A stretch of DNA of 64,000 nucleotides from the NCBI RefSeq assembly GCF_001661965.1, contig NZ_LYWZ01000023.1:1-64000 (forward strand), read 5' to 3'. The position numbers and the translations under genes were made by a program. Shown here piece after piece: positions 38,831 to 45,893 of the stretch. Each line of letters starts with the position of its first letter. Position 1 is the stretch's first letter. Below the pieces are notes generated by a model. It saw only the letters and a list, made by a program, of their open reading frames with translations, was not told the origin of the DNA and ran no database searches. This DNA comes from Croceicoccus mobilis. GTDB taxonomy: Bacteria > Pseudomonadota > Alphaproteobacteria > Sphingomonadales > Sphingomonadaceae.

Positions 38831-38895
38831 TTTACCGTGGCTGCGGCGGCTTTCGGGCGTTTGGATTTTCCCCGCTTATGACCGAAACGGGGTGG
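38831..38895 (-). repeat. Intergenic repeat B, copy 1
   Basis: 65-bp element that aligns without gaps to 45829-45893 read on the opposite strand, with 53 of 65 bases identical by hand count. It ends one base before the stop codon of the small gene at 38896-39096, so it lies just downstream of that gene. Its inner end contains GCTTATGACCG, related to the core GCTAACGACCG of repeat A. Function unknown; it may be the terminal repeat of a cassette or a transcript-end structure. Confidence 0.8.
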
Positions 38896-39096
38896 TTAGC
38901 TGACGCGAGGCTCCTGAGGGGATAGCCGACTGAAAATGAGAGAGAGCGACACAGAAACGAGCATCAATCCCATTACCGAATAGATGTAACCTTCCAAGCC
39001 ATCAAAACCGGAGAGCCTTAACACCATCAATGTCCCAAAACTGCCAAGGAGCAGGAGGTGGATACGCTCAATAAGTTCCTTCGCTTTTGTGACCAT
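38896..39096 (-). CDS. Small orphan membrane protein in a lower-GC island
   Basis: 66-residue protein with an amphipathic N-terminus (MVTKAKELIERIHLLLL) and two hydrophobic segments separated by RLSGFDGLEGYIY; the tail is RLSPQEPRVS. Base composition and codon use are clearly less GC-rich than the neighbours. The ATG 39096 has AAGAG at usable distance; a TTG six codons upstream (39114) is possible. It is bounded upstream by repeat A and downstream by repeat B, the same layout as the unrelated gene at 45333-45803. No family recognised. Confidence 0.65.
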   Translation of the reverse strand: MVTKAKELIERIHLLLLGSFGTLMVLRLSGFDGLEGYIYSVMGLMLVSVSLSLIFSRLSPQEPRVS

Positions 39097-39148
39097 CCGG
39101 CTTCTCTTTTCCAATCAGTGAATGGAATGAAGACTGCCCCATCGCCGG

Positions 39149-39185
39149 AACGTCCGCAATTGGTCGTTTGCCGACAGTCCGCTTT
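39149..39185 (-). repeat. Intergenic repeat A, copy 1
   Basis: 37-bp element on the minus strand, 33 of 37 bases identical to 45246-45282 read on the plus strand. It lies 52 bases upstream of the start of the small membrane protein gene, in the same orientation as that gene. Immediately beyond it is a near-perfect stem around GCCAGC/GCTGGC (39187-39209). Confidence 0.8.
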
Positions 39186-39242
39186 AGCCAGCAATAAGCC
39201 AAAGCTGGCAAACCGCGACCTAAAGGCAGCAGCCCCCTCCTC

Positions 39243-40526
39243 TCAACCCGCTCGCCGGCGCAATTTCGGTTCGACCGTAATGCCGAAGCTGTCGACGTAG
39301 TCCTGCATCTCGTCCATCACCTGTTCGGGCGTCAGCTTGAATTCGGCAAGGCTGTAGCGATGCGGATGGCGTTTCAGCAGGCGTGACCGTTTCACATAGG
39401 CACGCATCGCGGGCAGCGCGGGTTCGATATCCATGCCAAGGAAGCGATAGACGCGGCGCATTGCGCCCTCCCAGTCGCGCTCCATGTCCTCGTAATGGAT
39501 GTCGATCATGCGCTCTGCCGGGATCAGCTTGCGCGCGCTGCGCATGCGGTCGATCTGCAGGCGCGTCTTCCTCAGCCATTCACGGCCCAGTTCGCGCGCG
39601 TCGGCCTGATCGGAATAGATGATGGTCTGGTTCCATGCGAGCGAGGCCGCGCTGCCCACCAGCGCCAGCGGGTCGCGGTGGGTGAAGATCATCCGCGCAT
39701 CGGGGAAGGTCGCGAGCAGCGCCTTGATGTCGATCATGTGCTGCGGCGTTTTCAGGATCCACGGCTTCAGGCTGGAGGATTGCTGCGACCAGCCGATCAG
39801 TTTCAAAAGGCGCGCCATCTGGGCATAGGCAGGGCGCCCATCGGCATCCTCGCACCAGCGGCCATAGGTTTTCACCATCCATTGCGCCTCGTGCTTCATC
39901 CCCCAGAAGCTGTTGACGAGCAGGCCCAGCTCCTCTTCCGTCTCATAGGGACCGGTGGGATGGATGTTGAGAGTGCGCGGATTGGCCAGCCGCGCGATGC
40001 GCTGGATGCGGCGGGCCAGCTGAGGGCGGTGATCGGTCGACGGGTCGCCCGGCACGAAACCGGGCCATGGCACAGGCGAAATCGTCTCGAACGCGCGCAG
40101 GTGGGACAGGCGATGGTCGGACGCCAGCAGCCGGTGCATGCGCGTGGTGCCCGACCGCATCGGCCCGACGATGGCAATGGGGCGCGGCAGGGCGCGGGTC
40201 AGTATCTCCGGGTTCTCGGCAAACCATTGCTGCGCCCAGAGGCGGTCCTTCAGCACCTTGTCGATCTGCTTGTCGGCGGTAAATTCGCCCGCGACATTCA
40301 GCCTTGCATCGCGATGGAGGGAATCGAGCAGGCGGTCCAGGGGCTCGACGAAACTGTCGTCGCCGAAATCGGAAAGGCCGGTGGTTTCGGCCGCCCGGTC
40401 CATCATCGCCTGCCGGGTCAGGTCGGGTTCCGCCATCAGGCCCAGCTTGCGGCCAAGGGTCAAGGAGCGGTTGAGAGCGCCGATGAAGGCGGTGCGGCGA
40501 GGAGGCTTGGTGATGGCTTTGGGCAA
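39243..40526 (-). CDS. Sulfotransferase family protein
   Basis: About 427 residues. The 5'-phosphosulfate loop is GPMRSGTTRMHRLLASD near residue 125, the 3'-phosphate motif region is FTHRDPLALVGSAASL, and HYEDMERDWEGAMRRVYRFLG matches sphingomonad sulfotransferase-domain proteins that modify lipids or polysaccharides with PAPS. The start is uncertain: codon usage looks coding from the TTG at 40526; the first good ATG is at 40436, and the frame is open to 40607. The acceptor substrate cannot be inferred. Divergent from serS. Confidence 0.78.
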   Translation of the reverse strand: MPKAITKPPRRTAFIGALNRSLTLGRKLGLMAEPDLTRQAMMDRAAETTGLSDFGDDSFVEPLDRLLDSLHRDARLNVAGEFTADKQIDKVLKDRLWAQQWFAENPEILTRALPRPIAIVGPMRSGTTRMHRLLASDHRLSHLRAFETISPVPWPGFVPGDPSTDHRPQLARRIQRIARLANPRTLNIHPTGPYETEEELGLLVNSFWGMKHEAQWMVKTYGRWCEDADGRPAYAQMARLLKLIGWSQQSSSLKPWILKTPQHMIDIKALLATFPDARMIFTHRDPLALVGSAASLAWNQTIIYSDQADARELGREWLRKTRLQIDRMRSARKLIPAERMIDIHYEDMERDWEGAMRRVYRFLGMDIEPALPAMRAYVKRSRLLKRHPHRYSLAEFKLTPEQVMDEMQDYVDSFGITVEPKLRRRAG

Positions 40527-40743
40527 TATCTGGTCCGCGGGTCTTTCTGTTGGCTGATGGCAGGAAGCGCGCCGCCATGCAGGGACCGCGCACCATGCCA
40601 TTTGCAAATAGACCCACGGGCGGCAAGCCGGTTCCCGCGATCCGTATCAGGGCGAGGCAGGGCGCAAATCCGCATTCATCCGCCGATGCCCCGTTTTCTC
40701 CTCTGGACAGGCCCCGTCCGCTTTGGCCATAGCCCCGCGCACC

Positions 40744-45204: not shown

Positions 45205-45245
45205 GGGCCGCGAGCGTTTCGGCTGCTATTGGGTGATCTGCGCAA

Positions 45246-45282
45246 AAAGCGGCATGTCGGCTAACGACCGATTGCGGACGTT
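45246..45282 (+). repeat. Intergenic repeat A, copy 2
   Basis: 37-bp element with 33 of 37 bases matching the minus strand of 39149-39185. The core GCTAACGACCG (45260-45270) recurs inverted as GCTAATGACCG inside repeat B (45840-45850). It lies 50 bases upstream of the orphan gene at 45333 in the same orientation. Confidence 0.8.
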
Positions 45283-45332
45283 GTGATTGACACTTCTCGC
45301 CTTGAAAAAGAGGGTGTAAATTCCCCGCAAGT

Positions 45333-45803
45333 ATGCAACGCAAAACTGCCTCACTCCTCGCCGAACAAACTGGACTTCAGCTATTGTCCTTCCGGCACTT
45401 CGATTGCCTCTTGTTTCAAAGAGCGGAAGTGCTGAAGATGTTTATGCCGGAGACCAGACGTGCCATAGGTGGGTCTCCACAGGATAGATTGGTATCCGGC
45501 TACTTAATTGCCGCTTTTCAATCCGACCTGATCAAGCTTCGACCGCCCTCCAAAAGATTCGATTTATTGAATGTCATCGCGCAGATTCCCGTGATGAACT
45601 TTCCCTGGCTGGTGTCGTATTCTGCTTTTGACGGTGAAGCGGTCGATCAGCGGTTTATGGATGGCATTAGCGCACTCCTATCTGCGCTACCGAGTGATCG
45701 CATTGGATGGGAAACGCGTTTTGGCGATGACATATTCAGCGCCCGGAGCGGCGAAAGGCTCTTTTCGATCGTGCATTACTTGCGTAAGGTTGATCGACTG
45801 TGA
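45333..45803 (+). CDS. Orphan protein of unknown function in a lower-GC island
   Basis: 156-residue protein without recognised family, signal peptide or membrane segment. It contains FRHFDCLLFQRAEVL, DRLVSGYLIAAFQSDLIKL, VMNFPWLVSYSAFDGEAVDQRFMDGI and a C-terminal FSIVHYLRKVDRL, giving the look of a small alpha/beta cytosolic protein. Codon use and GC are lower than in surrounding genes, suggesting acquisition. The ATG 45333 has only a weak ribosome site. Repeat A is upstream and repeat B begins 26 bases after the stop. Real but uncharacterised; a spurious frame is less likely given the length. Confidence 0.6.
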   Translation: MQRKTASLLAEQTGLQLLSFRHFDCLLFQRAEVLKMFMPETRRAIGGSPQDRLVSGYLIAAFQSDLIKLRPPSKRFDLLNVIAQIPVMNFPWLVSYSAFDGEAVDQRFMDGISALLSALPSDRIGWETRFGDDIFSARSGERLFSIVHYLRKVDRL

Positions 45804-45828
45804 GTGCGATCGACTATGCGTCCGCTTC

Positions 45829-45893
45829 CCACCCCGTTCCGGTCATTAGCTCATAAATGCCAAACGCCCGAAACCTGCCGCAGCCTCGGCAAA
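45829..45893 (+). repeat. Intergenic repeat B, copy 2
   Basis: 65-bp element just downstream of the orphan gene, 53 of 65 bases identical without gaps to the minus strand of 38831-38895. The longest unbroken matches lie around CCAAACGCCCGAAA and GCCGCAGCC. With repeat A (45246-45282) it brackets a 648-bp unit. Confidence 0.8.

Follow-up and report, generated by a model that had tools for sequence, protein, structure and literature searches.

Two gene-bearing units of Croceicoccus mobilis

A stretch of 64,000 nucleotides (nt) from the genome of Croceicoccus mobilis (contig NZ_LYWZ01000023.1, positions 1 to 64,000; hereafter the window) contains two short units in which a single small gene is enclosed by two repeats, called A at the upstream and B at the downstream end in gene orientation. 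These units, their copies in the genome of the window (G000; 4.2 Mb in 32 contigs) and related sites in other genomes are the subject of this analysis. Unit 1 lies on the minus strand, with site A at 39148..39185 (45.8 bits), a gene at 38896..39114 encoding 72 amino acids (aa) from a TTG or 66 aa from the ATG at 39096, and site B at 38841..38904 (64.9 bits). Unit 2, on the plus strand, is composed of site A (45246..45283; 48.9 bits), a gene of 156 aa (45333..45803) and site B (45820..45883; 70.2 bits). The scores refer to R1, a 39-position model of A, and R2, a model of B, both built with the help of these copies. The two A copies (39149-39185, minus; 45246-45282, plus) are identical at 33/37 positions and the two B copies at 53/65, ungapped, which confirms the pair of units with common flanking repeats described in the initial annotation. 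The enclosed genes are, as also annotated, lower in GC than their surroundings (0.489 and 0.507, against 0.635 for the window). Neither of the enclosed open reading frames (ORFs) matched Pfam up to an E value of 1, and the search for known RNA families between 36000 and 48000 of the window returned just a tRNA.

Behind B both units carry a tail (38809..38840, minus; 45884..45915, plus) that is common to several other B copies of the genome; in unit 1 the similarity spans 38809 to 38906. This repeat, GCCGCAGCCACGGCAAAGCCGCGGCTGTCACGT..., follows B in many units of G000, precedes A in one of them (C16:230 kb), and occurs without A and B at C15:63995. It is kept at the LysR locus, described below, in five genomes despite changing cargo.

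Genome-wide searches of G000 used the units of the window as queries, and about 20 places matched them. A 401-base query with unit 1 gave 20 matches in the 4.2 Mb, itself included; those in unit 2 had E values of 7.3e-14 (B) and 1.5e-6 (A), low enough for the resemblance between the units not to be a matter of chance. R1 detected 17 A matches at E≤0.01, the threshold used for this model, and 16/17 are followed by B (R2) in the same orientation within about 1.1 kb. A and B are thus paired ends, as had been supposed, and not mostly solitary intergenic repeats; since both models were built from these copies, the figure describes pairing and not detection. The A match at C12:22214 is without B, and the B partner at C15:469871 is weak (19.6 bits). 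Each A-B interval contains a different small gene, and the 18 stretches examined have 49-58% GC. Tandem pairs, in which a B-A composite lies between two genes, are found at C3:263925-265140 and C18:24500-25600.

Architecture and distribution of the sites

R1 matches are present in 11/14 genomes of the genus, that of the window included. Four same-genus genomes, namely G007, G001 (Croceicoccus sediminis), G011 and G013 (Croceicoccus gelatinilyticus), contain arrays in which genes alternate with a B-A composite of about 118 nt. One very short cassette of G011 (L037:5492-5639) has no obvious ORF and carries instead a tRNA-like sequence, GACACGG...GGTTCGACTCCCGCC....

A pattern scan with one genome per species yielded 59 loci. 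The composites of 24/59 loci and one from the genome of the window make up the site model (25 composites); the 24 loci are all titled Sphingomonadales, mostly Erythrobacter and close genera. A mostly shorter version of the site is found at 11 further loci (12 composites), ten of them titled with genera or the family name of Caulobacteraceae and one only Alphaproteobacteria. The other 24/59 loci were dropped from the counts; among them L062 and L096 also match the site model, and several (L050, L051, L059, L084, L087, L101) have a common unrelated coding motif.

The consensus of the 25 composites reads GtC.GCTt.CCACCCCA.t..C.G.C.tt ... AgC.GAC.GGCaGCTt ... AAgC.G.c.gtC.Gc.AACGACCC.ATTGCGGAC.tt. 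On inspection, one core can be recognised in both B and A, in direct orientation and bounded by inverted outer arms (GTCCGC, GCGGAC). It is formed by a left arm GTCCGCt, a spacer with CCACCCCA or ACGACCCA, and a right arm aTTGCGGAC, which in B is degenerate, above all in the genome of the window. Conservation within the sites is concentrated in the arms and spacers. The inverted core GCTAACGACCG/GCTAATGACCG of the initial annotation does exist, as does an inverted similarity of A to B (GCTAACGACC against GGTCATTAGC); as the best description of the two repeats, however, the inverted core gives way to that of direct copies of one core, favoured by the many copies now compared. In the same way, B had correctly been placed just downstream of the gene, but according to the B model its conserved part begins earlier than annotated, directly after the stop codon. 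A consistent hairpin of single-stranded DNA was not seen in the 25 composites (mean z of -1.08 and -1.05, lowest single value -3.7), a comparison that had no true attC site as control. Judged by their sequence, A and B look like cores of the tyrosine-recombinase type rather than plain terminal inverted repeats.

Cargo turnover between fixed ends

At the LysR-lipase locus the two genes are separated by 37-46 nt in six genomes, and by 644 nt containing a cassette in G000. Other cargo stands beside LysR, behind the same conserved tail, in G006, G007 and G012, and G006 and G007 have the same B end with different cargo. Each of five genomes has its own insert between crtZ and the conserved gene that comes next, with A and B only in G000 and G007. 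The stretch behind crtZ (L159-L162) is an insertion hotspot, and the crtZ end of G006 seems partly duplicated.

Related cargo recurs at other places. A 214-aa gene is present in the arrays of both G007 and G013 with 93% DNA identity; the common stretch begins inside A and ends just past the stop codon, and the flanking sites are those typical of each genome. A glyoxalase-like gene of G000 (C12:73.7 kb) is 93% identical in DNA to the cassette located beside a recombinase gene in G001, with the same kind of borders. In these two homologous pairs the borders of the common stretch are the right arm of A and a point just before B, and the downstream sites differ, each being genome-typical. A joint search with 15 cargo proteins against 397 family genomes matched 55, the window's own included and the rest in other genera; as at most two candidates were scored per genome and some cargo genes were omitted (the glyoxalase-like gene and those at C21:243 kb and C25:46 kb), absences in this search mean little. 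From the loci of cargo homologues, 24 were fetched and 23 tested, leaving out the copy of the window's genome, and an A/B-type site was found within 150 nt in 12/23, against 0/23 in the reversed-sequence control.

The AlaDH loci of 12 relatives (L124-L135), which correspond to unit 1, contain no site match of at least 6 bits. In G005, G006 and G007, among the 9/12 loci inspected, AlaDH adjoins the gene, which we take to be seryl-tRNA synthetase, that in the window comes after the sulfotransferase; cassette and sulfotransferase are both missing there, so that these loci give no exact empty site for unit 1. The neighbour of unit 2, a fatty acid hydroxylase, was not matched at the cut-off in any of the 13 other genomes of the genus, which gives no empty site for unit 2 either.

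The expectation of exchangeable cargo between paired ends was borne out: the same place is empty or differently occupied in same-genus genomes, related cargo lies elsewhere, and the cargo is not conserved in place across all relatives. From these comparisons we consider it very probable that the units are single-gene cassettes exchanged at their A/B ends.

A candidate recombinase

A matching recombinase had been named in the initial annotation as something to look for, and a candidate was found in a 210-aa tyrosine recombinase whose gene is flanked by sites and stands beside arrays. The protein has the catalytic domain alone (PF00589 over residues 27-197, E 4.7e-21), with the motifs LRGCDL at 60, QQKT at 87, HSLRR at 158, GH at 183 and RYLG at 192, the complete catalytic R, K, HxxR, H and Y set. 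Its closest solved sequences are XerD, XerA and XerH (E 1.3e-5 to 8.8e-4), and it is encoded in 50/149 family genomes (E≤1e-20).

In the closer clade of the enzyme, defined by at least 80% identity, a limit chosen after the site matches at the enzyme loci had been seen, a site match of at least 6 bits lies within 250 nt upstream of the gene in 14/19 loci and downstream in 14/19. The controls gave 0/19 on each side for reversed sequence and 14/400 for random 250-nt windows, the latter drawn from loci themselves containing cassettes. Site matches are also found near the enzyme in L115 and L179, which were assigned to neither clade. When the enzyme loci are aligned, an A-type left half precedes the gene and an inverted B lies behind the stop codon, after a hairpin-like stretch. 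In C. sediminis (L164) the inverted B behind the enzyme is followed by a two-cassette array. In Brevundimonas huaxiensis (L082), an enzyme of 59% identity, cut by the contig end and stopping at 326, is followed by an inverted B half at 334-388 (17.2 bits) and then by an array. L164 and L082 are the cases of an array beside a tyrosine recombinase gene, the other arrays having no such gene within the stretch examined. At L111 (G001:C1:1038823-1039451) the recombinase beside a C. sediminis cassette is split in two frames; another copy of G001 is intact.

The genome of the window has one copy of the enzyme, of the distant clade, with a weak site match (8.1 bits) about 240 nt upstream, and its cassettes would therefore have been moved in trans or be stranded. 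Enzymes from other families of the class (13/289 genomes matched) do not have this type of site beside them, except for weak matches at two overlapping loci of G418. The enzyme also has a second subgroup, comprising L108, L117, L118 and L119 (three copies in G006 and one in G000); here the stop codon is followed by a conserved stretch peculiar to the subgroup, CCTTGGG...CCCAAGGGGCCGGTC...GTGAACGAAG, and the genes do not adjoin clear A/B sites. Relatives of the 210-aa recombinase are present in 356/72,556 plasmid records (rhizobia, Pantoea, Escherichia, Sphingobium and others), mostly with less than 60% identity, and their flanks may hold other site families.

Expression signals and cargo content

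The sequences following TTGCGGAC-like right arms in A-like sites, a set of 118 that includes chance sites, were inspected for promoter elements and start codons. TANNNT is found at a spacer of 16 in 17/118, and at any other spacer from 8 to 39 in at most 3. In 24/118 an ATG or GTG begins 35 nt downstream of the first T of TTGCGG, with counts of 0-8 at other positions. These spacings would suit a promoter whose −35 element belongs to the site and whose −10 element belongs to the cassette, with a leaderless start. For many cassettes the −35 element seems to be the right arm of A, although not for the two in the window: their TTGCGG motifs (39154..39159, minus, in unit 1, where it is a possible −35 element; 45272..45277, plus, in unit 2) are 63 and 61 nt away from the ATG, not the common 35 nt. 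By the longest-ORF rule, which is crude and applied to segments that are in part nested, 42/61 segments are read away from A and 19/61 towards A.

Among ten other cargo proteins two scored above the Pfam cut-off (Barstar, Glyoxalase), and one was just under the cut-off of the type VI immunity domain T6SS_Tdi1_C (27.3 against 27.4 bits). The Barstar-family and near-cut-off immunity cargo lie at C15:532-533 kb and C3:264 kb of G000. With a Barstar-family protein among the cargo, the cassettes may carry immunity-type functions or orphan immunity genes.

A model for cassette exchange

We propose an integron-like system of site-specific recombination in which the units serve as mobile cassettes of one gene each, a reading that we hold to be fairly probable. 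In the model, the inverted arms of A and B (GTCCGCt, aTTGCGGAC) would be the binding sites of a tyrosine recombinase, with crossover taking place in the spacer of the core. Recombination of A with B would release a circle that carries the gene and one hybrid core; this circle would insert at another core, in which case the outer halves of the sites would stay behind. The enzyme would be the 210-aa catalytic-domain-only recombinase, whose own gene is flanked by core variants; that it moves the cassettes is likely but unproven. In many cassettes the right arm of A would then serve as the −35 element of a leaderless transcript.

Several observations weigh against this model, in addition to the late choice of the clade limit mentioned above. 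Both recombination itself and the role of the enzyme are inferred, neither an event nor a circle having been observed. The distant clade of the enzyme has sites in 3/18 loci upstream and 7/18 downstream (0 and 1 in reversed sequence). The enzyme is missing in 15/31 family genomes with A matches and, at the strict threshold, A matches are missing in 34/50 family genomes with the enzyme; the co-occurrence reaches a Fisher p of 0.02 only, assuming the same 149 genomes in both counts. Inserts without recognised A and B stand at the LysR locus of G005 and at the crtZ locus of G005, G006 and G012. In 11/23 loci of cargo homologues, a site was not found within 150 nt.

The absence of the enzyme from those 15/31 genomes is what would be expected if RecA-type or microhomology recombination acted between short dispersed repeats, the repeats being islands of homology with no dedicated recombinase. 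Shared cargo between genome-typical sites fits such a process as well. We nevertheless judge it unlikely, because the conserved positions of the sites cluster in arms and spacers, sites flank a tyrosine recombinase gene far more often than chance would give, and a recombinase adjoins an array in another order. Miniature transposable elements that have terminal repeats, depend on a transposase for movement and pick up a gene between their ends would explain the scattering of single units over many places and the inverted similarity of A and B. They are not favoured because the ends stay behind, as seen at the LysR locus, where cargo changes between them; the tandem arrays with one common B-A composite between genes and the direct orientation of the A and B cores also speak against such elements, which makes this a very improbable explanation.

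The arrays of single small orphan genes split by repeated sites recall a true integron, whose integrase would have been lost or have diverged and whose B-A composites would be degenerate attC sites. Against this stand the lack of an integron-integrase match over the cut-off in the 14 genomes of the genus, outer boxes that are GTCCGC/GCGGAC and not RYYYAAC/GTTRRRY, the lack of a consistent single-strand fold, and two pairs in which the gene was not accompanied by its downstream site, so that we give this possibility little credit. A −35-like element in A at a fixed distance from many starts, and a B that follows the stop codon, could finally mean that resident, immobile genes are simply surrounded by ordinary repeats, promoter-like in A and terminator-like in B. 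This is hardly tenable, as the cargo is not conserved at the loci, related cargo recurs elsewhere, and the longest ORF, by the crude rule, points towards A in 19/61 segments.

Beyond the cassette model itself, the chances are about even that we are dealing with a second, independent integron-like platform in Alphaproteobacteria, in which a catalytic-domain-only enzyme captures genes at double-stranded cores, leaves most of the sites behind and supplies a −35 element, from which the gene would be expressed as a leaderless message at any landing place. In textbooks, integrons stand for the way in which bacteria collect single genes. If the system works as proposed, there is a further form of cassette capture, which uses a different branch of tyrosine recombinases and a different type of site, and some orphan genes of sphingomonads and Caulobacteraceae may come from it. 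It would then become testable how cassettes move while sites stay genome-specific, and how a newly landed gene gets a promoter. The wider enzyme family, with its members in plasmid records, may run further such systems with other site sequences.

Comparison with known systems

Mobile insertion cassettes and miniature inverted-repeat elements have, like the units described here, short ends around unrelated passengers at scattered places; their ends travel with the passenger, whereas here the outer parts of the ends stayed. FimB and FimE are small tyrosine recombinases of about 200 aa, mostly catalytic domain, and in this respect similar to the 210-aa enzyme, but they invert one switch. The dif modules of Acinetobacter (pdif, XerC/XerD) are likewise described as individual genes that lie between short recombinase sites and are reshuffled in the absence of a transposase. 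In dif modules the gene is flanked by inversely oriented sites; here the cores flanking the gene are, by inspection, in direct orientation, and a separate recombinase gene is linked to the sites. The core arms and spacer do not appear to resemble dif sequences. No description of this cassette system was found in the titles and abstract openings of the integron and dif-module literature, which was covered in part.

Integrons share with this system arrays of single genes, orphans for the most part, a recurring site of about 118 nt, a tyrosine recombinase gene beside an array, and genome-typical sites with diverse cargo. An attC site has the outer boxes RYYYAAC and GTTRRRY and folds as a single-strand hairpin, and an integron cassette moves with its own downstream attC. 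The integron integrase model TIGR02249 matched over its cut-off in 0/14 genomes of the genus, with matches scored in pieces and 14 control genomes also at 0, no positive control being among them. Membership among integrons was rejected on the enzyme, the outer boxes, the folding and the inheritance of sites, the controls for integrase and fold being incomplete. Unlike integrons, the present system has other boxes (GTCCGC, GCGGAC) and no consistent hairpin, its genes moved without the downstream site in two pairs, many of its units are scattered singly, the 3′ ends of its arrays face the 3′ end of the recombinase gene, and its site carries a −35-like element. Since its working would be integron-like and the defining features tested failed, we class it as a separate form of cassette capture by tyrosine recombinases.

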